From: a virus
DNA: 23,768 bases
Direction: 5' to 3' (one strand)
IMG/VR virus record: IMGVR_UViG_3300042430_000588
Span: 1-23,768 of that record
Part shown: piece by piece, positions 1,801 through 19,013 of the stretch
How positions within the stretch are numbered: position 1 is the stretch's first letter
Layout: every line of letters starts with the position of its first letter
Notes under the pieces: model-generated
Told to the model about the DNA's origin: nothing
What the model saw: the letters and a program-made list of their open reading frames with translations, nothing else
Databases searched by the model: none
Translations under genes and position numbers: made by a program

Positions 1801-4800
1801 TTAGTATCCGACTAATTTACTTAGCTTAGTAACTTCTTCTTTAATAGAGTTAAATTTATTAATATCAGTATTTCTATCGGCAGGTGATCTGTCAATACTA
1901 CTGTTATTATCTAATAACTTTACTAAGTCTTTAAATGAATTTAAACTTAAGGTATCGTTACCATTAATTTTCTTTAGGTATTTCATAGCACCAGTTATAT
2001 TTGAAATATTAGGGTAAGAGGATTCTAATTGAACATCTCTTGATGTTTTCTCATTGCTTATTTCAAATGCACCTTTTACTTTACCTTTGTTGGGATTCTC
2101 TCTCATCTGAAATGAGGGAATAAACCCAGTACCTGACTCAGGCTTTGGTACATCCATCATAGGTTTGCCAACAATAAAGTCATCTCCAAAAGATTTTTCA
2201 TAAGCAGATACAAAGGATTCATCACGAGCAATATCTTTAGCTTCTTGTTGAGCTTTATAGTTTGAGATATCTGCTTTGGGGTTACCACCGCCGTAAGTCA
2301 TTTGAGCAATTCGGTTAGGACCAGCTGATCTTAATAAGTGCTCAAAAGTTTCTTTAACTGATCTGGGTGCTTCAGAAGCCCACCTAGATAAGTCATTATT
2401 AACACCATCAAGCTTTAGTTCTCTCTTAGCTAAGTTAGCTAGCTGTTTAAACTGGCTAACCTTAACTACTAATTGCTTATGTAACTCGGCTGCTTGTCTA
2501 ATAGAACCGTCTTTACCAATGGTGTTGGTAAACAATGCAGAAGGTTTCCAACCATACTTATTAGCTTCATCTAAAACTTCTTGCATATTTGCTTTACGTT
2601 TCTGCCATTGAGCATCAGTGTAGCCTGATAGATAGTACTGTTCATAACTACCACCGGGCTTTAGCTTGTCAAAAATTTCATCAAAGTAAGCACCCAATGC
2701 AGGGAACTCACCCATCTCACCAATACCTACATAATCATTCATAGAAGCTTTACGCATTACTGCGTCTTCAGCTCGTTTGAGATAGTCATCTAGCATCTTG
2801 GGGAACTTAGAAATATAGTCAACAGAGCTTGGGATAGCTATGTTGTTATAAGCGTTACGGTAAATTAAAGAAGATCCAGCGTTAGAGATAATAGAGTCAT
2901 GTACCCAGGCTGCAGGGTATGGTGCTTTTCTTTCACGACCTTTATTAACAAATAACGTAGTCATCTTAACTAAATCACCGTCTAAAGATTGGATAGGCAT
3001 AACAACCATAAAGCGTTGTTGAGCTGTACCAATAGCATTATCAAAGTAATCGTACTTTTGTTTATATCTGTCAAAGAAAACTTGTTGACCTTTGGTTGCA
3101 GTAGGTTTTAAACCTCTTTGAGTTTGTACAAGATTAAAATCTTGATCGCCGGAACTAATACTTTCAGTCTCATAGTTAGGGGCTCGAATAGCTACCCTGG
3201 AACCGTCTTCTAATGTATGTTCCCACACTACACCGGGATCACCTTTACTAACAACAGGTGTGACACCCGCAGGAGTAAGAATCCAATGGTCACCTGTAGG
3301 TCCGGGGACAATAACACTGGTATTAAGAATAGCAGTATACCGACCAAAACTTTTCAGAATATTAGCATAGTTACTTTGAACAACTTTTCTTAAAGTAGAT
3401 TCTAAGGCTTTAGTTAATTGTTTATTAGCAAAATTACTAGACTCAGAGCCAGTAGAGTCCATCAAGTTCCTACGTAAATCGCCGGGCAAACTATCCATAA
3501 ACTCAGTGACTTGAGCGCCAAACATACTGGCATCTTTACCGTAAGACGTTTGCATTAGAGGGGCTTTCATAAAGTCTTTTGCAACTTTAGCAAGGCCATT
3601 ATCCTTAATTAGCTTATTGAACACACTATCAAAAGCATTAGCTAACTCAGGATTGTCAGTACGCAGATCGTCTAACAAAATTTTCTTTAGCTCTTTGAAA
3701 GCATATTCACGCATGTCAGCTAACTTAGGATTAAACGTACCTAGACGATCTGCGTTTTTAAAGCTACCAAAGAAAAGAGACTGTAAAAAAATACCGTTCT
3801 GATTACCGTCATCAAAGCTGTTATGAGATAAATAAATTGTTTTACCCTTGTTTAGAGGATTAACTATTTCTGCCATATCAGCCCACAAGTTTGTGTTACC
3901 TGTAGCTTCTCCGGGTTCAATAGCCGCCATTAAACCTACAATATTATCATGCTGACCTTCAGGATTTTGTAACCAAGCTTTATATTCATTACCAACATCA
4001 GCTAGTTTACGAGCAATAGCTGGAGTATATCTTTGAATAATATCTGCAGGAGCATACTTAATAATATTAGGCTCAGGGTTAGCCGACACGGCCGTATAAT
4101 AATTAATAGTAGCATTAACCATTGTACCAATAGCAGCTAATTCTTCAGGCTTTAAAGCCAATAAAGCCGCATGCTGTTCTGGACCTGCTTTTTGAAAGAT
4201 CTTAACTGCACGAGCAATAAGCTCTTCAGATTTAGTATCATCGAGAAGCAAGTTAGTGTCTTTGATAAAATCTTTATCAGCAAAAGTAAGCATATCACGA
4301 GTACCTGTTTTGGAACCCATATAGTCTACACCAGCACTTGCCGGGAAGAATCGTTGATTTGCTAAAGCGTGTTTCCACTCACTGTAATTACTACGACCCA
4401 TTAAAGTATTAGCATTTAAAATGTCAAACTGAAGAGCTTTAATTTTAGTGTCAATAACATCTACAGCTTGTTCTACCTGAGCCTCTTTATATTTCTGTAG
4501 TGAACCGGGAACGTTAGCATCAAAGCCTTGATCTGGATCTGTGTTATCGTGTACTGCTTGATAGTCACTCTCACTTACTTTATGTCTTTTAGCGTATACA
4601 GATGTAGACCATTTGATACGACCCTTATCATCTTTAACTGCATTAGCAATAATATCATCTAACCATAACTGTTTGGCTTTAACGTTGTCTGCTAAGAAAG
4701 CAAAGTTCATAGAGCCCATGTAAGTCTTAGTTAGCTCAGCAGCATCAGTCACAATGTCTAAACCCTTAGGTGAGTTTTCAGATACTTGTGGAGTACCCTT

Positions 4801-5970
4801 AATAAAAGATGTGCCACCTGGGTTAGGAGTTCTTGAAGGAAGTCTGTAAGATAATGTTTGACTTACAGCATCTGCCAACCTTTGTAAACCTCTTGCAGCT
4901 TCCTTAGCTTTTGGATTACCAAAGAAATGGATCTTACTAGACTTAGGATCCATGTAAGGAATAATACTACCATCATTAATAGCAGAAGCAACTTGGCCTC
5001 TTGCAATAGTAGATGCCGCTTCTTTACTTAGAGGGATACCACTCTTTTGAGCGTTATCTGAAATAAAGTGATCAACACTGTCTATCAAAGTACTTAACGC
5101 ATTCATATCATCAATAGATGAACCGTTAAGAGATGTGGGTGTATAGCTAGCACTTGCTATACCATCCTGTCTAATTTGATTAAGTGACTGAGACAACGCT
5201 AAACCAGAAAGAGTGGCTAATGGTATACCATACTTTTCAATATAAGGTTGATAGCCTTCTTCGCCTTCTTGATTAACAATAGCAGCAACACCAGCGGGTA
5301 CTTTTTCACCGTTAACCTTAACAGTTGCTGTAGCCTTATCAAAGTCAAACAAGTTATCCATTGCATTGTAAGCTAATTTTTTAAAGTCAGCTTGAGATTG
5401 ATCAGCGTAAGAAGCAATATCCTCTTGGGAACTAAAACCAGAAAGCAATTTACTTTGCTCTCTGGCAGGAGTATTAATAGTAGCTCTTTCAGAAGTTAGA
5501 TTAAGAACACCTTCAATAGCCCCTTGAGTATCTAAAACACCGTTCTCTTGAATATCACCAAAAGCTTCTTGGAAGTTAGGTGCAGCAGCAAGTTGCTGAG
5601 TCTGCTCCATTTGATAATCTTCGGGAGTAAGTTGCCGATATTGCTTTTGACCCATTTCATCTACAATAGGGTTACCATTAGCATCCAACATTACTTCGGC
5701 ACCCGGTACAAATCTAGAACCAGTAGCTCTAGATACATCAGCCATAGAAGCTACAGGTGCTGTGTCTAAAGCCTCGGTTAAGCCACCACGTTTAGGTACA
5801 TCAATATTAAAAACATTAGGTACACTGTTTTGAATAGCTTGGTTAATATCTGAGGCGGGATTAGGCACCTCTGCCTGAGGTACAGTTAAGCCAACATTAC
5901 GGTTAATGTCAGCAAACCTATCTCTTAAAGATAATGGGCCTCCAGAGGAGGTACTTGAGGTAGTAGCCAT
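1801..5970 (-). CDS. Giant late protein with T7-fold single-subunit RNA polymerase motifs (candidate virion RNA polymerase)
   Basis: 1389 aa, last gene of the leftward late operon, with AAGGA eight bases before the ATG. The catalytic signature of T7-type polymerases can be read along it. A motif-A-like segment at 720-730 (DDGNQNGIFLQ) gives Asp721 for T7 D537. Motif B at 798-811 (KDFMKAPLMQTSYG) gives Lys802 and Tyr810, spaced exactly as T7 K631 and Y639. Motif C at 1022-1026 (WVHDS) gives Asp1025 for D812. Upstream, QRFFP (539-543) may be a worn-down form of the DxxGR-V-Y element. The N-terminal ~400 and C-terminal ~300 residues match nothing I know. N4 carries a T7-fold polymerase of about 3500 aa in the virion, also encoded at the end of its late genes; the position after two ejection-type giants suggests the same role here at less than half the size. 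Activity is inferred, not shown: the Arg of motif B is Lys, and the DxxGR Asp and Gly are absent. Confidence 0.72.
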   Translation of the reverse strand: MATTSSTSSGGPLSLRDRFADINRNVGLTVPQAEVPNPASDINQAIQNSVPNVFNIDVPKRGGLTEALDTAPVASMADVSRATGSRFVPGAEVMLDANGNPIVDEMGQKQYRQLTPEDYQMEQTQQLAAAPNFQEAFGDIQENGVLDTQGAIEGVLNLTSERATINTPAREQSKLLSGFSSQEDIASYADQSQADFKKLAYNAMDNLFDFDKATATVKVNGEKVPAGVAAIVNQEGEEGYQPYIEKYGIPLATLSGLALSQSLNQIRQDGIASASYTPTSLNGSSIDDMNALSTLIDSVDHFISDNAQKSGIPLSKEAASTIARGQVASAINDGSIIPYMDPKSSKIHFFGNPKAKEAARGLQRLADAVSQTLSYRLPSRTPNPGGTSFIKGTPQVSENSPKGLDIVTDAAELTKTYMGSMNFAFLADNVKAKQLWLDDIIANAVKDDKGRIKWSTSVYAKRHKVSESDYQAVHDNTDPDQGFDANVPGSLQKYKEAQVEQAVDVIDTKIKALQFDILNANTLMGRSNYSEWKHALANQRFFPASAGVDYMGSKTGTRDMLTFADKDFIKDTNLLLDDTKSEELIARAVKIFQKAGPEQHAALLALKPEELAAIGTMVNATINYYTAVSANPEPNIIKYAPADIIQRYTPAIARKLADVGNEYKAWLQNPEGQHDNIVGLMAAIEPGEATGNTNLWADMAEIVNPLNKGKTIYLSHNSFDDGNQNGIFLQSLFFGSFKNADRLGTFNPKLADMREYAFKELKKILLDDLRTDNPELANAFDSVFNKLIKDNGLAKVAKDFMKAPLMQTSYGKDASMFGAQVTEFMDSLPGDLRRNLMDSTGSESSNFANKQLTKALESTLRKVVQSNYANILKSFGRYTAILNTSVIVPGPTGDHWILTPAGVTPVVSKGDPGVVWEHTLEDGSRVAIRAPNYETESISSGDQDFNLVQTQRGLKPTATKGQQVFFDRYKQKYDYFDNAIGTAQQRFMVVMPIQSLDGDLVKMTTLFVNKGRERKAPYPAAWVHDSIISNAGSSLIYRNAYNNIAIPSSVDYISKFPKMLDDYLKRAEDAVMRKASMNDYVGIGEMGEFPALGAYFDEIFDKLKPGGSYEQYYLSGYTDAQWQKRKANMQEVLDEANKYGWKPSALFTNTIGKDGSIRQAAELHKQLVVKVSQFKQLANLAKRELKLDGVNNDLSRWASEAPRSVKETFEHLLRSAGPNRIAQMTYGGGNPKADISNYKAQQEAKDIARDESFVSAYEKSFGDDFIVGKPMMDVPKPESGTGFIPSFQMRENPNKGKVKGAFEISNEKTSRDVQLESSYPNISNITGAMKYLKKINGNDTLSLNSFKDLVKLLDNNSSIDRSPADRNTDINKFNSIKEEVTKLSKLVGY

Positions 5971-5982
5971 TGTTATTATTCC

Positions 5983-8900
5983 TTACTTAAATTTTGATGA
6001 TGCAACATCAGAGACTATAGGGAAGCTTCCTACAACAGGGGCTGCTCTTACAAGCTGCTTAACTGCTTCGGGTACTTTGTCTTGTGAAAGGTTATAGGCT
6101 GCTGAAATGGGTTTTGAAGCCCAATTAATAGCAGGAGAATTGTCTTTAGCAGTTTCTATTGACCACTTAAAAGGATCTTTAAAAGGTGAAGGTTTATTTT
6201 CAGGATACAAAGGTGATAATGTATCGACTACTCTTTCGTATTGACCTAATAAACCTGACCCATAAATATTACGTTGAATTTCTTTTTTGTAACCTTTAAT
6301 ATAAGGGTTCTTACCGTCTTCATAGGCAAGTTCATCTTTAATAGCATTACCAATCATAGAAGCTAGTATCATACCCATAACAACAGCAAAAGCTTGGTAA
6401 CGCATTCCAACGTTACCGTCTTTAATGTATTGTTTATACAAAGTAGGTAGTAATGTACTATGAGCAGTTGCCATAAAACGAGTCATTGCAGTAATTAAAC
6501 GTAAACGGGGGTCATGGTAAAACCTAGGTAAATTGTGTACTTGAGGGTTAACAACCTTACTGTCAACAAAGTTAGAGATACCTGTATAAATATTATCTAC
6601 AAACGCTTGGTAGTCAGGGTGAATATTACCTTTATCATCTATCATTTCTTTATGATTTCTTCCAAAGATATTTGAATCATTACCTGTATTATGAAGATTA
6701 TCCATAACGTACAGGGTACGATTAACATCAATACCATACTCTACTAAATCTTTAAGGTCATATGCTTGTTGCACAGTTAAACCTTTAGCAGTGTTAAATC
6801 TAGTTTCCCTTTCAACAGCTGGAATGTTTCTTAAGTTATTAAGTTTACCCATAACAGTATCAGCAGCAGCAGATAAAGCGGAGATACGAGTACTATCAGT
6901 TAAAGCTCTTAAACCAATAAGGTGAGCCATAGTGTTCATAGCCTCACGATGTCGGTGATCTGCGTATTCGTATTTAGTTTGAGTAGCATACCCAGAATCT
7001 GAATAACCTAATACATCTAACAACTTACGACCAGTAGTTCTGTATATTAAATTGTTTACTTTATCTTCAAGCTTCTTATACTCTTTAGTATTAGAAGTTT
7101 TGGGGTCTGATGTAGCTAAATTATCCATTTCTTTTTGTAAAGCTTCAAGCTCTTCATTCATTCTGAATGCCGGAGAATTTCTCATATAGGAAATACCACG
7201 GGTACTTAATGCCCAAGAAGTTCCTTTGTTAAGGTCATTACGAATTTCAGTAAACAAGTTACGCACGTTGTCATATAGTTGACCAGTGACTTTATCACCA
7301 CGAGTCCCTAAAATAGCAGCTACTGATTCGGGTAATGAACTAAAAGCAGCTTTACCCAATGAGGATAACATAGCCATAGTAGTACCCCAAGCAACTACAC
7401 CTCTATAAAGCTCATTATCAATTTCTTTATAATTACCGTTAGCAATTAAATAAAAAGCTTTTACCTGAGTAGATACATGTTTAAATTCCTCATCACTATC
7501 AAACTCACCGTTTTCTTTTGCTTTTTGTAATAGCTGAACAAGCTTTTGTCCGTCCTTACCAAAGTATTTATCGTTAGCAACTTTAGATACAGTGTGTTGT
7601 TTTAAATTTCCTAAGTTAGAAAAGAAGCTTGATTTAAATAGGTCAGCTAGTTCTGGATCTTTAATAATTCCTTTTTGTGAAAGAAAATTCTTAGCGTTTT
7701 CTACTAGAGTAGGGTTTTTACCAACAAGTTGATCAATAGTTTTATTAGCTTCCCTACGAGTAACACCTGTAAAAATTAATTTATTAATTAAGCGTTCTTT
7801 GTTTGCAACAATAATATCGGGGTCAATTTGAGAAGCTTCAAATATAGAACTTAGATTATCAAAGAAGCTATCATTAGTCATGTCACTTAAGGCTTGTCTT
7901 AAATTATCAGCATCACGAACAAAGTCATCTAATATTTTATTACCTGACCATTCATTTTTACTCCAATAATTATTGTAAGCATCTTGAATCATGGCTTCTG
8001 TTTCTAATTTACTTTTACCTAAAGCGGTAGACAAGTCATCAGCGTTAGGAAGTAAACTATTTAAAGAACCAATAGTCTTTTGTTTGTATCGAGCGTAGTG
8101 ATCCCCTGATAAAATACCATGACCACCAACAACAGCTTTTAACATAGCTCTATATGGTTTAAATTGACCTTTATCATTAAATAATTTAGGTGCAATCTGA
8201 TGAGACAGTTGACCGTTACCCATTAGCTGAGAAGGTCTTGTAATTAAACTTTTAATAGTGTCCCATGTACCTTTTGTTTCGGGTAAATCAACTGCTTTGT
8301 TTGATTTAAATGTATCATCTGTTTTAAAGTCAGTTGCTTTAGATTCATCAAACAATACATCGTCAATGCTTTTATCTAATCTAACTATTTCACCATCACG
8401 AGTAACTACTTCTTTACGCATTTCAGGCTGTTGACGGGCTAGCTGTGCTTCAGACAACATGCCCTTAAATTCTTCTTGGCTATTAGCAGCTGAATGCCAC
8501 TGCATTGCATCTAACGCAGCAAAAGAACTACCTAAAGAAACACCCATTACCTTACCACCAACAGCAGCATCTATAATATTGTTCCAAAAATCTTTTTCGT
8601 ATTGGATATCTGTATTCCATACCCCACGAGTAGCCATCATCTCAGCGTACTGTTGAGCACTCTCAGTAAATGCTTCCCCAAGACCCTTACCTTCAACAGA
8701 AGCAATACCTCTTAAAGCTGCTTCAGCAGATCTGTATTGTTGATTAGCAAATTTACTACCAAGCTCTGTTAAGGATACTAACTCTTTCTTAGTACTTTCT
8801 TCTAAAAGTTTTTTAGCTTCAGGCATAGTCATACGCTTACTAAGTTCTTTTAATGCAGCTTCTTTACCTGCCATAGTAAACAAGTTACCACCAACCATAC

Positions 8901-10146
8901 CTTCAAGACCTAGCTTGTCAAATACAGTAGCTGATAAACCTAAAGCCGATGCTAATGATGCATTCTTTTTGTCTTCAGGCTGATCAGCATAAAATTTACC
9001 AATGTACATAGGAGAAGCTAAAACAGTAGACGCAGCAAAACCAGCTACACCAGTTAACCCAGCTAAGCCTACTGCGCCACCTGTTGCAACTAATACCGCT
9101 AATTGAGGTACAGTACCTGCAATAAGGTTACCTACATAAGTAGCTGTATCTTGGATAGCACTCCAAGAATCATTAGTATTAATATCTTTATAACTAGATA
9201 AGGTTTGAGGTAATGATCTTTGTTCTGCTTTTAATTCACGAGTTTTAGCTCTAGAAATGTCTGATAAATATTCCCATTTAGTAGTGTCACCAACCATTTC
9301 ACCCATACCTGAAAACAACTTCATTAAGTCTAAAGAAGAATTCTTAATAGTTGTTGCTATTTGAGCCTTAGCCTTGTTAAGACGAGTTCTATCTGGATTC
9401 CTTACGGCAGTGCCCTCAACATAATCAGGTAACACAGAAGAAATAAACAGATCTCTTTTTTGTTCTTCTATTTGTGCCTTAAACTTTTCTTTTAAATCAG
9501 GACGAATAGAGGGGTCATTAATTAAACTTTCTAATCGGGTGATCTCATCTACAATAGCCGCCTGAGCTTTAGGGCCAACTAAGTTTTTAAAAGCAGCTAA
9601 TTCAGCTTCATCAAACGCGTTTTGTTTGGCCTCAAATAAAGACTTACCATAAGACCTTACTTCAGCTATATTCTCTTGTTTACGCTTAGCTGCTAAGTTA
9701 AGCATGGGATCCACAAAAGCTGCATCAGGGAACAAAGTACTTGCCGCAGCAGTGGACATACGATCTCGTACAACTTCTGGCGCTGTGTTATAACCCATCC
9801 GTTGTAAACCTAAAGTAACTAAAGTGTTACCTAAGTCACGGCCCTCAGGTGTTTCCTGTGTAGCTAATGTTCTACCGTAATAATCTTTACCTTCTGTTTT
9901 TAAGTTAGTAAAACCACCCATACGGGCTACAGCAGCAGCATCTTCTTCGGATGTATCTGAAAGAATAGCATCAGGAGTAAATACACCTTTACGGTCTTTA
10001 GCCGTTTCGGGTGCATTAAAGTTTTTAACACGATACTTTTCACCGTTTAATCCGGTTAAGGTATCTGCATCATATTGCTCTAAAGGTGTTTCTACGGGCT
10101 TACCGTTGATAGTTTTAATAGGGTACTTGTCGTTTAATAAGTCCAT
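5983..10146 (-). CDS. Giant internal/ejection protein with N-terminal staphylococcal-nuclease-like domain
   Basis: 1387 aa. Residues ~15-118 read as an SNase fold: DADTL (26-30), YRVKNFNAPE (38-47) and DYYGRTLA (88-95), followed by a GRDLGNTLVTLGLQ segment. Compared with Staphylococcus nuclease, Asp28, Arg39, Glu47 and Arg92 match D21, R35, E43 and R87, while Asn44 replaces D40, one of the calcium ligands. Long charged helical regions follow, then hydrophobic stretches at about 337-382, 530-547, 918-946 and 1252-1268 that could insert into membranes, as in T7 gp15/gp16-type ejection proteins. AAGGAG lies five bases before the ATG. It sits between the transglycosylase giant and the polymerase-like giant with gaps of 12-13 bases. 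Likely a virion protein that enters the host; the nuclease may act in the periplasm or on host DNA, or be only structural. Confidence 0.75.
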   Translation of the reverse strand: MDLLNDKYPIKTINGKPVETPLEQYDADTLTGLNGEKYRVKNFNAPETAKDRKGVFTPDAILSDTSEEDAAAVARMGGFTNLKTEGKDYYGRTLATQETPEGRDLGNTLVTLGLQRMGYNTAPEVVRDRMSTAAASTLFPDAAFVDPMLNLAAKRKQENIAEVRSYGKSLFEAKQNAFDEAELAAFKNLVGPKAQAAIVDEITRLESLINDPSIRPDLKEKFKAQIEEQKRDLFISSVLPDYVEGTAVRNPDRTRLNKAKAQIATTIKNSSLDLMKLFSGMGEMVGDTTKWEYLSDISRAKTRELKAEQRSLPQTLSSYKDINTNDSWSAIQDTATYVGNLIAGTVPQLAVLVATGGAVGLAGLTGVAGFAASTVLASPMYIGKFYADQPEDKKNASLASALGLSATVFDKLGLEGMVGGNLFTMAGKEAALKELSKRMTMPEAKKLLEESTKKELVSLTELGSKFANQQYRSAEAALRGIASVEGKGLGEAFTESAQQYAEMMATRGVWNTDIQYEKDFWNNIIDAAVGGKVMGVSLGSSFAALDAMQWHSAANSQEEFKGMLSEAQLARQQPEMRKEVVTRDGEIVRLDKSIDDVLFDESKATDFKTDDTFKSNKAVDLPETKGTWDTIKSLITRPSQLMGNGQLSHQIAPKLFNDKGQFKPYRAMLKAVVGGHGILSGDHYARYKQKTIGSLNSLLPNADDLSTALGKSKLETEAMIQDAYNNYWSKNEWSGNKILDDFVRDADNLRQALSDMTNDSFFDNLSSIFEASQIDPDIIVANKERLINKLIFTGVTRREANKTIDQLVGKNPTLVENAKNFLSQKGIIKDPELADLFKSSFFSNLGNLKQHTVSKVANDKYFGKDGQKLVQLLQKAKENGEFDSDEEFKHVSTQVKAFYLIANGNYKEIDNELYRGVVAWGTTMAMLSSLGKAAFSSLPESVAAILGTRGDKVTGQLYDNVRNLFTEIRNDLNKGTSWALSTRGISYMRNSPAFRMNEELEALQKEMDNLATSDPKTSNTKEYKKLEDKVNNLIYRTTGRKLLDVLGYSDSGYATQTKYEYADHRHREAMNTMAHLIGLRALTDSTRISALSAAADTVMGKLNNLRNIPAVERETRFNTAKGLTVQQAYDLKDLVEYGIDVNRTLYVMDNLHNTGNDSNIFGRNHKEMIDDKGNIHPDYQAFVDNIYTGISNFVDSKVVNPQVHNLPRFYHDPRLRLITAMTRFMATAHSTLLPTLYKQYIKDGNVGMRYQAFAVVMGMILASMIGNAIKDELAYEDGKNPYIKGYKKEIQRNIYGSGLLGQYERVVDTLSPLYPENKPSPFKDPFKWSIETAKDNSPAINWASKPISAAYNLSQDKVPEAVKQLVRAAPVVGSFPIVSDVASSKFK

Positions 10147-10159
10147 AGAGACTCCTTAT

Positions 10160-13100
10160 TTAAGGTTTTTGTTTTCCACCGTCTGCAATCCATTTAATAA
10201 ATGAAGATTCTTTAGCTCCGTAAGAGTCTTCATAGAACTTACGAATAGCTTTGTATTCAGGTGATTTCCATTTGTTAGAGTAATCTTTAATTAGTTCTGA
10301 TTTAGCTTTTACTTTAGCACCACTACTTAATTGATTGTTAACTCTGCTATCTAGTACTGAGCTTAACTGTGTTAAGTTTTCGGCTGAAGGTAATTTACCT
10401 TCTTTAGAAGCAAACAATTCACGGTTAGTTGCAGATAAAGTATATAGAGCAGAAGCTTCAATTAAGGCTGGTAATTGGTTAATGTCAGTTTTAGAATCAG
10501 CTTGATATTGGAAAGCTGTTCTTAAAATCTGATTAGCCTGTTTAGAATCCATAACTCCCATATTACGCATAGCAACAACAGCGTCTCGGCTTGACCTTTC
10601 AGCTAGAGCTTTAGCTTCAGCTTCCGAATAATTTTTACCTCTAAGTGCTCTTAACTTTTCTTGAAGAACAGGTAGGGCCATTACTGTAGCATCTTTTTCT
10701 ACATCACGGTCAATCTCTTGTTGAATCTTAAGCGGAGTAGGTCTGTAATTAGGTTTAAACCATTTACCACTGACGTCATCATACAGTTGCATATTATCAG
10801 AATCTGAACCTATAAACTTACTTTGATAAACTTTACCATTATAAAAGTGGTAGTCTTCATTTACCTTAGAAGCAGCTGGATCACGTTTAACTGCATAAGT
10901 ATTTAATTGCTGCAATAATTGAGATGTGTATTCTGCACGTTGAGCATCATTCTTTAAGGTAGGTAGTACCTCATTTAATTTTGCGCGAGCTTGATTTCTA
11001 ATGGGTTGATCAATTTCAGAATCACCAAAGGCTTTAGCTAAAGCAGAAGTATTAGACTCAAATCTTTCACGATCATTTTTAAGAGCTTCATAAGTACGAG
11101 TATCTTTAGCTTTTACATCTGCTCTTTTTTCAGCGTCTAAACGGCTGGCTTCTTGCATTGCTGCTTGGGTTAACAACGATTTATCTTGTCTTGCGTTTTG
11201 AGCATCAATAGTTTTCTGTTGTCTCTCAGCAGCAATACGCTCACGGTTTCTTGCATCAGACTGCATTAATGCGTCTCTTGAAGCATATCTCAAAGAACCA
11301 GCAGCAGAGCCACCAGTAAGCATACCGCCAGCAGCAGTAATAGCAAATCTAATTAGGTCACCTTGATTAAAAATACCTTTATCACCGTATATCTTTTCAA
11401 TTAAAGTTGCAGCTTCTTGCTGTTTAACTTCAGGAGTAGCATTAGAAGCTTTAATAGCAGTAATTAATTTGTCAAGGTTAGTGCTCTCCTGTTTGGCAAC
11501 AGTAGCAATAGCATCATTTGCTGCTTTAGGGTTTGAATCAAGCATAGAAACAGAAGAAGTTTCAAATACAGGAATTGGTGGTTGACCTTGGAATTCAGTA
11601 GGAGTGCCAACCTCTACCGCAGCAGGTTGTGATTTATCAGGATTAATTGGTGTTGGAGTAATAGTAGAACTATCACGACCAATACCTACTGACCGCTTTA
11701 AATGACCTTCAGCCCAATCAATATAATCTTGATTAGTTTTAAATTTAGCGTATACAGGGTTTTGTTTGATAATTAAATCAGCATTTCCTTTACGGGAGCT
11801 TTGATCTAAAGTTTCTCTAAAGTCACCTTGTAGATTAGATAATACTCTGGCACCATCACCTGAACCAAGACCATGCATTACGTATCTGTTAACATTAGTT
11901 AATGGAATACGTTGCTTATTTAGTACAGCTTCATTCTGTTTATTAGTATGCTCAAAAGCCATACGTTGTGCTTCATCAGTGTAAAACTCTTTAGATCCAT
12001 ACTGAACACCGGCTAACTCCGGTACTTGCTTACGGATGCTGTTCCATGTACCCTCTGTAAATTGAACTGGTCCAGATGCAGAAGATAAAGGATTCTTAGC
12101 TGTGTTTTTATTACCTGACTCTGCGCCTTTAAATAAAGTGTAAGCGTCAATAGCTTCAATATCATTAATAGGTTTATAAGTAGTTGTTTGGTTAGCAGGT
12201 ACAGCAACTACAACAGGTGCTACAGGTACATTAGCCGCTTGTAATCTTGGAGCATATTGGTCTAAAGGTACAACAGGAGCTACATTACCCATGCGATTAA
12301 AGCCGGGTACTGGTTTTGCTACAGGTGCTTTATCTTTTACTGCATCATAGGCATCTGCACGAGCATTCTGAATTCCAGGATCAGAACTTGCAACCTGTAC
12401 TGCAGGATAATCTACCTGAGGCACTTCTAAATTAACATCTAATGGCCCATAACCTGTGTCACCGTACATAGCATTAGTAGTACCATCAAAATAACCAGCA
12501 GCTTGTTGTACTTGTTGAGGAACTTCTGTAGTACCGTTGTTATAATTAGCTTGTGGTGCAGATCCACGGTTAAATGAAGGAATACCAACAGTACCGTCTA
12601 CAAATGCAGAACCGGGAACATCAGGATGTTCGTAAGCTAATGACGGTACAACCTGTGTGGTACCTTGTGAATGGTATTTGGCTTGACCGGGTGCATCTGA
12701 GTAGCGTACATCTACAGTACCATCTCTTAGTGCGTTCTTTTCACGACCTTCTTCAACCAGCTTTTTAATAATAGCTTTGTTCTTAGGGTTCTGAGCAGCT
12801 GGTTCTGGAATAACAGCCTCACCGGGTGTAAGCATAGCAGGTACAGTATCGGTACCTTGTGCGTATAGTTTCTTTTGACCCTGACCTAATACTCCAGTAT
12901 CAGCCAAAGGATTTTGAGTAGGTATACCTAATTTTTGTCTATTCATTCTAGGTGCTTTACCTAGTGGAGAACCTAACTCTTTTAACTTAGCTACATGAAG
13001 GTCTTCTTTATGACCAATACCTTGGTTAGCCTTTGCAGCAGCTTCTTTGAGCTTAATTTGATGCAGTTGTTCTTTACGTTTTTGTTCTGCTTGCATCTTA

Positions 13101-13177
13101 GCTACTTCTCTTTGTTCTTGGGATTGTAGCTTAAGATACTCGCGATGCTGCTTGGCAGACATAGATAGTGGTCCCAT
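10160..13177 (-). CDS. Internal virion protein with lytic transglycosylase-like domain
   Basis: 1005 aa. Residues ~1-65 are strongly charged with many Lys, Glu and Gln and are probably coiled coil. Residues 105-122 carry GTDTVPAMLTPGEAVIP, a motif seen in many phage tail proteins, followed by GT-containing repeats to residue 235. A lysozyme/SLT-like domain spans ~340-450: AESGNKNTAKNPLSSASG gives catalytic Glu353, then GPVQFTEGTW, a later NVNRYVMHGLGSGDG and an Ala/Leu segment. Such domains cut peptidoglycan locally during DNA ejection (compare T7 gp16). Residues ~600-1005 are mostly helical. AAGGAG precedes the ATG by five bases, the same AAGGAGTC pattern as the next giant gene. An alternative start is Met6. 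Confidence 0.82.
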   Translation of the reverse strand: MGPLSMSAKQHREYLKLQSQEQREVAKMQAEQKRKEQLHQIKLKEAAAKANQGIGHKEDLHVAKLKELGSPLGKAPRMNRQKLGIPTQNPLADTGVLGQGQKKLYAQGTDTVPAMLTPGEAVIPEPAAQNPKNKAIIKKLVEEGREKNALRDGTVDVRYSDAPGQAKYHSQGTTQVVPSLAYEHPDVPGSAFVDGTVGIPSFNRGSAPQANYNNGTTEVPQQVQQAAGYFDGTTNAMYGDTGYGPLDVNLEVPQVDYPAVQVASSDPGIQNARADAYDAVKDKAPVAKPVPGFNRMGNVAPVVPLDQYAPRLQAANVPVAPVVVAVPANQTTTYKPINDIEAIDAYTLFKGAESGNKNTAKNPLSSASGPVQFTEGTWNSIRKQVPELAGVQYGSKEFYTDEAQRMAFEHTNKQNEAVLNKQRIPLTNVNRYVMHGLGSGDGARVLSNLQGDFRETLDQSSRKGNADLIIKQNPVYAKFKTNQDYIDWAEGHLKRSVGIGRDSSTITPTPINPDKSQPAAVEVGTPTEFQGQPPIPVFETSSVSMLDSNPKAANDAIATVAKQESTNLDKLITAIKASNATPEVKQQEAATLIEKIYGDKGIFNQGDLIRFAITAAGGMLTGGSAAGSLRYASRDALMQSDARNRERIAAERQQKTIDAQNARQDKSLLTQAAMQEASRLDAEKRADVKAKDTRTYEALKNDRERFESNTSALAKAFGDSEIDQPIRNQARAKLNEVLPTLKNDAQRAEYTSQLLQQLNTYAVKRDPAASKVNEDYHFYNGKVYQSKFIGSDSDNMQLYDDVSGKWFKPNYRPTPLKIQQEIDRDVEKDATVMALPVLQEKLRALRGKNYSEAEAKALAERSSRDAVVAMRNMGVMDSKQANQILRTAFQYQADSKTDINQLPALIEASALYTLSATNRELFASKEGKLPSAENLTQLSSVLDSRVNNQLSSGAKVKAKSELIKDYSNKWKSPEYKAIRKFYEDSYGAKESSFIKWIADGGKQKP
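12473..12865 (-). repeat. Degenerate GT[T/V]x(V)P peptide repeats within the transglycosylase protein
   Basis: Six short related units lie at residues 105-235 of the 1005-aa protein: YAQGTDTVP, RDGTVDV, SQGTTQVVP, VDGTVGIP, NNGTTEVP and FDGTTNA. Their GT dipeptides are at residues 108, 153, 172, 195, 215 and 232, so the last five recur every 17-23 residues. The DNA has diverged, so the repeat is visible mainly in the protein. Confidence 0.6.
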
Positions 13178-14129: not shown

Positions 14130-14792
14130 TTATTTACCCCCTGATGTAGCTTGCTGTCTTGCAGGATTACCATAAATAGTGCTTGCATAACGCTGTAAAC
14201 CCTGCCATGTTGCGTCTAGACCTTGTTGATCAATACCACGTTGTTGGTTACCTAAGTTGGCTAACGATGAAGTAGTTTTATCTGCAACGTTAAATTGCCC
14301 GGTAGAAGCTTCGTTCATCTGCTTTTCAGCATTTATTTTATTATTAATAACTTGTTGAGCGTACTTGGCTTTGGCAGCGGAATCTGCAGCAGAAGTAGCT
14401 AAAGCATGTCTGGTAGAACCGAGTACCCCTGTAGAGCCAAATTGGTTGTTTAAATTTGCAGTAGACATTCCAATATCTAACTTAAGAGCATCTTGCAATT
14501 CATTGGCACCGCCTGTATTGGCCAGTGTGCTCATTCTCTTTTGAGTATCATCTAGGCTTTTTATAGCATTAGCGGCCCTATTTACTGTGGCATCAGATCC
14601 CATACCAAAAGCCTTTTGTTGTAATTGAGAAGCACCAGCTACTTTACCTAACTCCCCGGCAGCATAAGCAGATTCAGTTGCGTTACCTACGTTTTTAAGA
14701 TAAGGTTGTGCCCACTCAGGAATAGTAGATACTGTACCTCCACCTCCACCACTATAGTTCTTCTTAATAGAACTTCTTTTATTAAATCTCAT
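14130..14792 (-). CDS. Putative internal/structural virion protein, 220 aa
   Basis: It has a basic start (MRFNKRSSIKKNYSGGGGG), then a largely helical protein rich in Ala, Gln and Asn with few hydrophobic runs. The segment FGSTGVLGSTRHALATSAAD (residues ~119-138) resembles a GxLGSSR-type motif that I recall from T7 gp14-like and other phage internal proteins. Its start overlaps the gp13-like gene in an ATGA arrangement, with AAAGGA upstream. Together with the two following small genes it occupies the position of T7 gene 14. Assignment by context; the sequence alone is not decisive. Confidence 0.65.
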   Translation of the reverse strand: MRFNKRSSIKKNYSGGGGGTVSTIPEWAQPYLKNVGNATESAYAAGELGKVAGASQLQQKAFGMGSDATVNRAANAIKSLDDTQKRMSTLANTGGANELQDALKLDIGMSTANLNNQFGSTGVLGSTRHALATSAADSAAKAKYAQQVINNKINAEKQMNEASTGQFNVADKTTSSLANLGNQQRGIDQQGLDATWQGLQRYASTIYGNPARQQATSGGK

Positions 14793-15208
14793 TGTAAATC
14801 CTTTCGCATTACCACATAGGCTTGCTTAAATCCTGGTACATATTTAGGTAGTACTTTAGCCCACCCTTCACGACCCCATTGTTCTATGGCTTTACAACCT
14901 GTGTCCTTAGCAAACTGCTCTACGGTTGGAAATACTTTAGATTGTTCTTCAAAGTTACTGCCACTGAAAGCAATAATATGAAGTGTTTTATGTTGTTTAT
15001 ACTGCATAAATTCAGTTAAACCGGCACCAATAATATTATATTCTTCATCAACTACAACCCAACATTGAGCGTAATTATTAAGAATCTTTTGCATATAATC
15101 AGTTAAGGTTGATTCTCCTTGGCCATGTTCTAATACTTTAAAAAGTAATTCAGAAATCTGAGGCCAATGTTTTAATGCTTCTGAGGGTTGTAGTTGGATT
15201 ATTTTCAT
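14789..15208 (-). CDS. T7 gp13-like protein, GNAT acetyltransferase-like fold
   Basis: 139 aa, with the layout of small GNAT-like phage proteins: an N-terminal helix pair, then WVVVDEEYNIIGAGLTEF (about residues 50-67, two strands), LHIIAFSG, and a C-terminal GCKAIEQWGREGWAKVLPKY with final strand AYVVMRKDL. The GRxGW...L...GF pattern is typical of the T7 gp13 family (DUF2833). T7 gp13 is needed for virion morphogenesis and is not known to acetylate anything. The gene starts two bases past the stop of the tail fibre-like gene (CAGGA four bases upstream) and lies directly before the small internal-protein genes, as in T7. Confidence 0.78.
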   Translation of the reverse strand: MKIIQLQPSEALKHWPQISELLFKVLEHGQGESTLTDYMQKILNNYAQCWVVVDEEYNIIGAGLTEFMQYKQHKTLHIIAFSGSNFEEQSKVFPTVEQFAKDTGCKAIEQWGREGWAKVLPKYVPGFKQAYVVMRKDLQ

Positions 15209-17331: not shown

Positions 17332-18858
17332 TTACCTCCGATCTGCTGGTCTTGCGTCTAATGCAAATGTAGCCATACGCCAATAACCTGTTGAAGAAAT
17401 TCTGTAGTTAAGTACTCGACCGTTTACTCTTGGATCTACTTTATAACCTTGTGCTTTTTGATTATTAGGCAAGAAGGTAAATAAATCATTTGAAGTAAAT
17501 GTTACTGTGTCAACAAAGTTGTTTTGACCTAATACCGAGATACTTATATTAGCATCAGAAGGTACCTTATCAAACACAGGATAAATAGAGCTAATTAAAG
17601 AACTACCAGTTGTATCACCGGTATTTAATTTAAGTTTTTCAATATAAGAAGTAAAGGTAGTTAGTGCAGAACCGTTCCACATTAAATAATTAGCATCTGT
17701 CTTTAAGGTCTGTGTACTGTTAGTTGCCATGTAAATAATTTCTTTACCATATTGGAAGGCATTACTCTCATTAGCTGGTCCTGTGAAAGAGTAATTAATA
17801 TTTGGTAATACTCTTTTAGTCCATGTTTTATTTTTATAATTATAAATAAGAGCTTCATTACAAACAGTAGATGCACCTTTAGGGTAGTTAATCCATATTT
17901 CTTTATAAAAGGAATTCTTAACTAAGTGTACTTTATCAATAGCATTTTGATTTAAGTTGTTAAAGAAATATTTTTTAATTCTGAAGTCAGCTAAAGACTG
18001 AATACTACCAGAACCATTGTGAATATAAATATCATTACGATCAACAACAAAGTGATTACCATCAAACTCACATACACAATCTGTGCTTAAGATACCATAT
18101 GATTTAGAGTATGCAGCTACTCTTGTTTGCGCACCAATAGTTAATATATTAATACTATCAGAAGAATAAACAAACATGTTACCCCTGAGTTCCATCATAT
18201 CTAATACAGGTGAGGTAGAGCTTAATTCAAACTCGTCAGCTGTGTCTGTTGTTAAACCCGGTTGCCATATTGTAGGAATAGCGCCTGTAGCTGCCTGAAC
18301 GGATACTCTAATAGTTCCCGGAGCAGATGTGGTAATGCCACTTTGTACTAAGGTAAGGTTGGCTGCAACTAATGAATAATTAAGTGACCGAATAACTTTA
18401 GCTGTTACTGTTAGCCCTGCTACATAATTCCAATTAGGTAATGGTTGAAATGTGTTACCTGCTACAGGATCGTTATATAAACAATATAGTGGAGTTGATT
18501 TACTGTTATTTAGGATAACAGCATAACCACCGTTAAAATAAGTACCTTGCCAATCACTGTTAGTATAACCAGCACCTGAACCACTAAACATGGTAGACTG
18601 GTTACCCGCCGAATCTACTCGGATAATACTACCATCTTGTGCAAAGATATTATAACCTTGATCTGGTCGTCTCCAGTGAATACCGTATGTAGGTGTAATA
18701 GATAATACTCTGGAAGTTGTCTCACCTGTTATAGTCTGTACTGCGTTGTCGTCAAACCGTACATTGAGAACATCTGTAAAAGTATTCATAGGTACGATCA
18801 TTGGTGGCAAATCAGTGTTTAATCCACCTTCTCCAAGACCTTGTATTTGTTCTGCCAT
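17332..18858 (-). CDS. Tail tube/hub protein, beta-propeller-like (T7 gp12 / P22 gp10 analogue)
   Basis: 508 aa from the ATG at 18858. The frame stays open two codons further to a TTG, but AGGAG at 18867-18871 is eight bases from this ATG. The product is rich in beta strands, with repeated short hydrophobic/aromatic segments (FDGNHFVVDRNDIYIH, FYKEIWINYP, ALIYNYKNKTWTKR) recalling the blades of podovirus tail hub and nozzle proteins. The start (GGLNTDLPP, then LNVRFDDNAVQTITGE) is typical of these proteins. It is the first gene of the tail/ejection group after the gap at 18859-19064. Family assignment by pattern and position only. Confidence 0.68.
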   Translation of the reverse strand: MAEQIQGLGEGGLNTDLPPMIVPMNTFTDVLNVRFDDNAVQTITGETTSRVLSITPTYGIHWRRPDQGYNIFAQDGSIIRVDSAGNQSTMFSGSGAGYTNSDWQGTYFNGGYAVILNNSKSTPLYCLYNDPVAGNTFQPLPNWNYVAGLTVTAKVIRSLNYSLVAANLTLVQSGITTSAPGTIRVSVQAATGAIPTIWQPGLTTDTADEFELSSTSPVLDMMELRGNMFVYSSDSINILTIGAQTRVAAYSKSYGILSTDCVCEFDGNHFVVDRNDIYIHNGSGSIQSLADFRIKKYFFNNLNQNAIDKVHLVKNSFYKEIWINYPKGASTVCNEALIYNYKNKTWTKRVLPNINYSFTGPANESNAFQYGKEIIYMATNSTQTLKTDANYLMWNGSALTTFTSYIEKLKLNTGDTTGSSLISSIYPVFDKVPSDANISISVLGQNNFVDTVTFTSNDLFTFLPNNQKAQGYKVDPRVNGRVLNYRISSTGYWRMATFALDARPADRR

Positions 18859-19013
18859 GTACAATTCTCCTCTTTAAATTTTTCTTTAATAAATACCCTT
18901 ACCAATTGACCAACAATATTATCTACTGTAAATTGTACAATAGGAATTTCAATATTATGTTTCTCACAGATCTTACGGAATTCAATAATGTTAGACCCGT
19001 TATTAATATCATT
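18819..19013 (-). pseudogene. Possible gene remnant: open frame without a start codon
   Basis: On the - strand 64 codons stay open with protein-like composition (segments NIIEFRKICEKHNIEIPIVQ and VDNIVGQLVRVFIKEKF). A TGA closes the frame upstream and no ATG or GTG lies near its beginning. Its last ~12 codons overlap the tail-tube gene out of frame. Immediately upstream a second frame reads AKEHNIE, resembling EKHNIE in the main frame, which suggests a frameshift or duplication. I do not recognise the family; chance coding-like sequence in AT-rich DNA is possible. Confidence 0.3.

Follow-up and report, generated by a model that had tools for sequence, protein, structure and literature searches.

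A staphylococcal nuclease domain with a conserved active site at the N terminus of a giant, predicted ejection-type protein of a short-tailed phage

Introduction

What does a nuclease-like domain do at the N terminus of a giant phage protein that is probably ejected into the host, and how can a nuclease and a genome be kept together in one capsid? These questions are raised by a 23,768-nt sequence of an uncultured short-tailed phage (IMG/VR record IMGVR_UViG_3300042430_000588), referred to here in its full length as the window. In a sequence-only reading, a staphylococcal nuclease (SNase)-like domain had been assigned to positions 9793-10104, which fall within a minus-strand ORF of 1387 aa and cover its residues 15-118, and the product had been described as a giant ejection protein with a secreted or ejected nuclease. 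Enzymatic domains on the ejection proteins of podoviruses are known to cut peptidoglycan (T7 gp16) or to synthesize RNA (N4 gp50). Ejection proteins exit the capsid ahead of the genome and form a channel that spans the envelope (PMC8954989, PMC12633501), and their enzymatic domains have been swapped among different phages (PMC8954989). In the open-access literature that we searched, there was no report of an SNase, thermonuclease or nuclease domain on such a protein. Here we ask whether the domain is an SNase, whether its active site is intact and what kind of protein carries it.

Results

Gene neighbourhood

The coordinates of the gene, of its neighbours and of the features discussed below are collected in Table 1. 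Judged by eye, the N terminus of the giant protein, MDLLNDKYPIKT, has no apparent signal peptide, and a secreted nuclease finds no support. In the maps of the window, Roseobacter phage CRP-7 and LUZ24, the gene follows the tail genes within the virion gene cluster, and several large genes in series at this place are the usual arrangement of ejection proteins. The flanking products include a protein with a transglycosylase-type domain, a third giant protein and a tail or virion structural protein of the LUZ24 gp56 type, which marks a LUZ24-like order of the virion genes. For this last protein the listed start codon is TTG, and an ATG two codons further on (MAEQIQG..., window 18858) is the likelier start. 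Between a tail-fibre-like gene and small virion genes, window 14789-15208 encodes a 139-aa protein that matches PHROGs of unknown function (phrog_25629, E 3e-5; phrog_7642, E 1.4e-4). A Kyte-Doolittle scan of the giant protein picked out a hydrophobic stretch that is also found in CRP-7 and in the relatives L070 and L076, and that falls below the threshold in L078 and L082.

Table 1. Positions in the window of the giant protein, its domains and active-site residues, and neighbouring genes
Feature	Position	Strand	Evidence
Giant internal-virion or ejection-type protein (predicted), N-terminal SNase domain	5983..10146	-	1387-aa ORF, ATG start
SNase-fold domain, residues 12-137	9736..10113	-	profile vs PDB, E 3e-9; AlphaFold2 models matched to SNase
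D26-A-D28-T29 (SNase D19/D21/T22), metal-site strand	10060..10071	-	D26, D28 and T29 in 45/45
R39 (SNase R35)	10030..10032	-	45/45; six synonymous codons
N44 (SNase D40), Ca2+ ligand position	10015..10017	-	family: N 35, D 8, S 2
E47 (SNase E43, general base)	10006..10008	-	45/45; GAA 21 / GAG 16 among 37 sequences
R92 (SNase R87)	9871..9873	-	Arg in 42/43 sequences reaching the column
Possible membrane-inserting segment (residues 338-378), hydrophobic and Gly/Ala-rich	9013..9135	-	Kyte-Doolittle scan
Body, residues 262-1278, homologous to LUZ24 gp50 and UFV-P2 structural protein	6313..9363	-	hhalign; tblastn and phrog_6958 of relatives
Neighbour of 1005 aa; residues 348-583 (window 11429-12136) form a transglycosylase-type domain	10160..13177	-	phrog_4067 transglycosylase, E 1.3e-14
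Third giant of the cluster, 1389 aa, similar to CRP-7 gp33	1801..5970	-	tblastn E 4e-5; same gene order
Tail/virion structural protein, LUZ24 gp56 type	17332..18864	-	phrog_3287, E 6e-55; tblastn to LUZ24-like phages

Identification of the SNase fold

The possibility that the resemblance to SNases is due to chance, or that an unrelated fold has been misread, has to be considered, since the window sequence alone scores 14.9 bits (E 0.039) with the Pfam SNase family (PF00565), for which the curated cut-off is 21 bits, and since phmmer with the window protein alone gave no SNase match in the PDB. The family as a whole gives a different answer. A profile built from 18 N-termini matched the S. aureus thermonuclease in the PDB with an E of 3e-9, and among the matches listed 60 of 60 were SNases; with a larger profile of 41 sequences an SNase was found at E 2e-9. 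In addition, the relative L025 exceeds the Pfam cut-off by itself (24.7 bits); a Pfam search had been put forward as a check in the sequence-only reading. AlphaFold2 models of the domain, made without templates (mean pLDDT 76.6 and 74.8), led to the same fold: Foldseek matched SNase structures with a best E of 5e-4, and among the matches listed in the structure comparison 50 of 50 were SNases. When the models were aligned to SNase with VIA, Z was 7.2-7.5 with an rmsd of 3.4-4.0 over 113-114 residues; a Z of about 7 also occurs for models without clear relatives, which leaves some room for the chance explanation and is not decisive alone, although the value agrees with the sequence result. Taken with the coincidence of the invariant columns and the SNase active site described below, the profile result and the Pfam score of L025 already contradict a chance or misread resemblance, which we consider highly improbable, and the assignment of residues ~12-137 of the 1387-aa protein to an SNase domain is firmly supported. 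A profile of the whole protein produced only noise against the PDB because the SNase signal is diluted, and the domain therefore needs to be searched alone. Matches of the window protein to the Pfam families PTS_EIIC, COX16, 5_3_exonuc and DKNYY were below the cut-off and were taken as chance.

Conservation of the active site

Conservation was assessed in 45 distinct sequences, namely 44 giant proteins and the stand-alone SNase of phage vB_DshS-R4C (L063). Across the complete sequences the sole invariant columns are D26, D28, T29, R39 and E47, which correspond to D19, D21, T22, R35 and E43 of SNase. The motifs DADTL (residues 26-30), YRVKNFNAPE (38-47) and DYYGR (88-92) lie where the sequence-only reading had placed them, and the loss of Arg39, Glu47 and Arg92 in homologues, which would have spoken against that reading, is not what was found (45/45, 45/45 and 42/43, respectively); D26 and T29 had been missed. 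As had also been pointed out, the distance from R39 to E47 is eight residues, the same as between R35 and E43 in SNase, while E47 and R92 are 45 residues apart as against 44 in SNase, and D28 and R39 are separated by 11 residues as against 14, the hairpin being shorter. How often would such a coincidence arise by chance? For all five invariant columns to fall on eight active-site positions of SNase among 99 columns, the chance probability is about 8e-7, with a set of eight positions that includes T22 and was picked after the data were seen; when restricted to the five textbook SNase residues, three of the five coincide and the probability is 6e-4.

In the first set of 37 of the 45 sequences, pairwise identity in the domain has a median of 30% and a minimum of 15%, and synonymous codons differ at every invariant site. 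Since the codons vary silently at these sites, the conservation of the residues reflects selection at the protein level rather than recent ancestry. Consistent with purifying selection, dN/dS in the SNase domain was 0.05-0.36 in the six close pairs tested. In one relative (L050, N terminus, L050:12539 onwards) a Gly is found at the R87 position (ESFGGDLIDLE) and the Asp at the D40 position is kept; it is possible that this enzyme is inactive or altered.

The canonical metal ligand D40 is absent from the window protein, where Asn44 takes its place as the sequence-only reading had noticed. How well this Asn is conserved was a point left to be checked, and in the family the position is Asn in 35, Asp in eight and Ser in two of the 45 sequences, so that it is widespread among the relatives but not universal. 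A quick tree with some long branches, computed from the protein without the SNase domain, requires three changes between the Asn, Asp and Ser states, so that Asn44 is a feature of clades; the clade of CRP-7 retains the Asp. We have treated D40 as variable and did not count it as defining the SNase fold family. The Asn present in most members should weaken the canonical metal site. It has been reported for S. aureus Nuc2 that the enzyme is Ca2+-dependent and active although two of its nine active-site residues are changed (PMC3994088).

Carriers of the domain and the LUZ24-type body

A direct search of viral contigs with the window protein gave no close relatives, and the homologues were found by way of the neighbouring tail gene and afterwards with family alignments. 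They are about 1230-1440 aa long and are encoded on viral contigs, and they include gp34 of the cultured Roseobacter phage CRP-7 (QBQ72827.1, 1368 aa), which is annotated 'hypothetical protein'; CRP-7 is a podovirus (PMC6918029). By the patterns used, no relative was found in bacterial or archaeal genomes. The domain was matched in 71 sources, a number that includes the window and some sources overlapping on the same contig, and in all of them it is N-terminal on a long frame, save for the stand-alone protein L063. Weak tblastn matches to a Pectobacterium T7-like gp16 and to a microvirus VP2 were not accepted as homologues, as they showed no significant match to the domain profile, and a weak tblastn match of the domain to a faecal phage was likewise not accepted.

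Downstream of the domain, hhalign (probability 99.1, E 4e-19) aligns residues 262-1278 of the window protein with residues 65-952 of LUZ24 gp50, which carries the annotation 'phage particle protein'. A relative also gave a tblastn match to the UFV-P2 structural protein, and PHROG phrog_6958 was matched by a relative. A search with the domain profile gave no significant SNase-domain match in the LUZ24, JB8 or UFV-P2 loci. As the domain is absent from these LUZ24-type loci, the SNase represents an additional module at the N terminus of an internal virion protein of known type, and either this lineage has acquired it or the other has lost it. On the basis of the homology to LUZ24 gp50, the synteny and the transglycosylase neighbour, the classification of the giant protein as a predicted ejection-type protein is well supported; to this extent the earlier term 'giant ejection protein' can be retained, with packaging and ejection being predicted steps for this phage.

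Divergence of the domain among close relatives

The relatives L074 and L075 share about 97% identity in the body but 63% in the SNase domain. At the DNA level (L074:4880-5600 and L075:4880-5600) identity is high to about codon 75, after which a strongly divergent patch covers the domain's second half; both proteins keep R87 and the catalytic residues. The nuclease domain seems to have recombined locally or to have diversified fast. A milder form of the same divergence is seen between L077 and L079. The pattern is not general, since in other clades the domain is more conserved than the body.

Discussion

In this study, we revisited the N terminus of a giant phage protein and found an SNase domain with conserved catalytic residues, fused to a body that is homologous to a phage particle protein and encoded among virion genes. 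From these observations we infer, with moderate confidence, an ejected, Ca2+-switched nuclease that acts in the envelope as part of a LUZ24 gp50-type internal virion protein. SNases require Ca2+, and Ca2+ is scarce in the cytoplasm. The metal could thus serve as the switch: during virion assembly in the cytoplasm the nuclease would be off and the packaged genome spared, and in the periplasm, outside the inner membrane, where Ca2+ is available, it would be on. The giant protein would be packaged in the capsid, travel through the tail upon infection and join the trans-envelope DNA channel, and the SNase domain would come to lie in or beside the envelope, where it would cut nucleic acid. The envelope orientation rests on the analogy with T7 gp16, whose N-terminal enzymatic domain, a lytic transglycosylase, finishes in the periplasm (PMC8954989). 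The likeliest use of such an enzyme would be the cutting of host or competitor nucleic acid outside the channel. Taken further, this would mean that the DNA-entry channel of a widespread lineage of short-tailed phages carries an active nuclease, switched by Ca2+, which acts as an exclusion weapon borne by the virion: as soon as infection begins it would destroy nucleic acid of competitor phages, or that of the host, in the envelope, the genome of the phage itself being spared because it is inside the channel; we offer this last proposal tentatively and regard it as rather doubtful.

A nuclease that is packed with a genome is hazardous, and this calls either for tight control or for a role that is not catalytic. 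In the latter case the SNase fold would have been kept as a nucleic-acid-binding or structural module, which might hold the leading end of the genome or organize the ejection channel. The replacement of D40 by Asn in most members and the harm that cutting within a DNA-filled capsid would do are both in line with such a role, and there are other proteins in which the SNase (OB) fold has a binding function. However, the general base E43 as well as R35 and R87 are conserved while the remaining domain drifts to 15-30% identity, and this strict conservation makes a non-catalytic role, the main rival, unlikely in our opinion. It might also be argued that the nuclease is active but has a different substrate, namely the end of the phage's own entering genome, which would be trimmed or nicked, or, once the nuclease has been translocated completely, nucleic acid of the host in the cytoplasm. 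An SNase acting there would face the low Ca2+ of the cytoplasm, and SNase-type enzymes are expected to have no sequence specificity; in addition, the N-terminal enzymatic domain of T7 gp16 remains periplasmic. We therefore consider these substrates quite unlikely, although ejection proteins go in with the genome and the largest ejection protein of T7 and of N4 reaches the inner membrane or the cytoplasm (PMC8954989, PMC12633501). An envelope-acting, Ca2+-switched nuclease is hence the reading that we prefer, and the retention of the active site across dozens of very different relatives suggests that phages with this protein may deliver a DNA- or RNA-cutting enzyme at the moment of infection.

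Compared with the SNase/thermonuclease family (PF00565), the domain has the same fold and the same order of D19, D21, T22, R35, E43 and R87 with near-identical spacing, but D40 is mostly Asn and the domain is not a free or secreted enzyme, being the N-terminal part of a phage virion-type protein of ~1390 aa. LUZ24 gp50 (1055 aa) and the UFV-P2 structural protein (phrog_6958) share nearly the full length of the body and the position in the virion gene cluster; however, LUZ24 gp50 is without the N-terminal extension of ~200 residues that holds the SNase domain. CRP-7 gp34 has the SNase-first layout and the same gene order, but it carries Asp at the D40 position and its overall identity to the window protein is about 20%. 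The layout is that of T7 gp16 (internal virion protein D), in which a short-tailed phage has an enzymatic domain at the N terminus of a giant ejection protein (PMC8954989). In T7 gp16 that domain is a lytic transglycosylase; the window protein has an SNase at this place, with the transglycosylase on the neighbouring protein, and the searches run detected no sequence similarity between T7 gp16 and the window protein. The product of gene 030 of vB_DshS-R4C has an SNase domain with all active-site residues, including D40, and scores 28 bits, above the Pfam cut-off, but it is a small stand-alone protein encoded beside an integrase gene (L063:962-1303; Dinoroseobacter phage vB_DshS-R4C, MK882925.1 23702-24043, annotated hypothetical protein).

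The SNase fold and the ejection machine are each known; their combination, a seemingly catalytically intact SNase on a podovirus protein of the predicted ejection type, did not turn up in the open-access literature searched. A conserved nuclease at the N terminus of an ejection protein would add an activity that is new to the DNA-entry machine, and a likely function can now be assigned to proteins that are presently annotated 'hypothetical'. Because the gene is carried by a cultured pair, CRP-7 and its Roseobacter host, packaging, activity and role are directly testable.

A relation of the region after the SNase domain to the N-terminal domain of the N4 virion RNA polymerase (vRNAP, gp50), which is described as likely to be membrane-spanning (PMC12633501), may be taken as a lead only. 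It comes from a PHROG match of relatives (in L072, residues 338-602 match positions 208-471 of the vRNAP PHROG, E 1.7e-6); hhalign of the region, with an E of 0.25-0.31, did not confirm it, and Pfam and PHROGs scans of the window protein gave no RNA polymerase match. Finally, weak matches to the SNase-like domain were seen in BFVD entry A7KUR9_2 by fold (Foldseek E 0.022, prob 0.85) and in PHROG phrog_8809 by profile (positions 1105-1205 of 2317), which suggests that further giant phage proteins may have a domain of this kind embedded in them.
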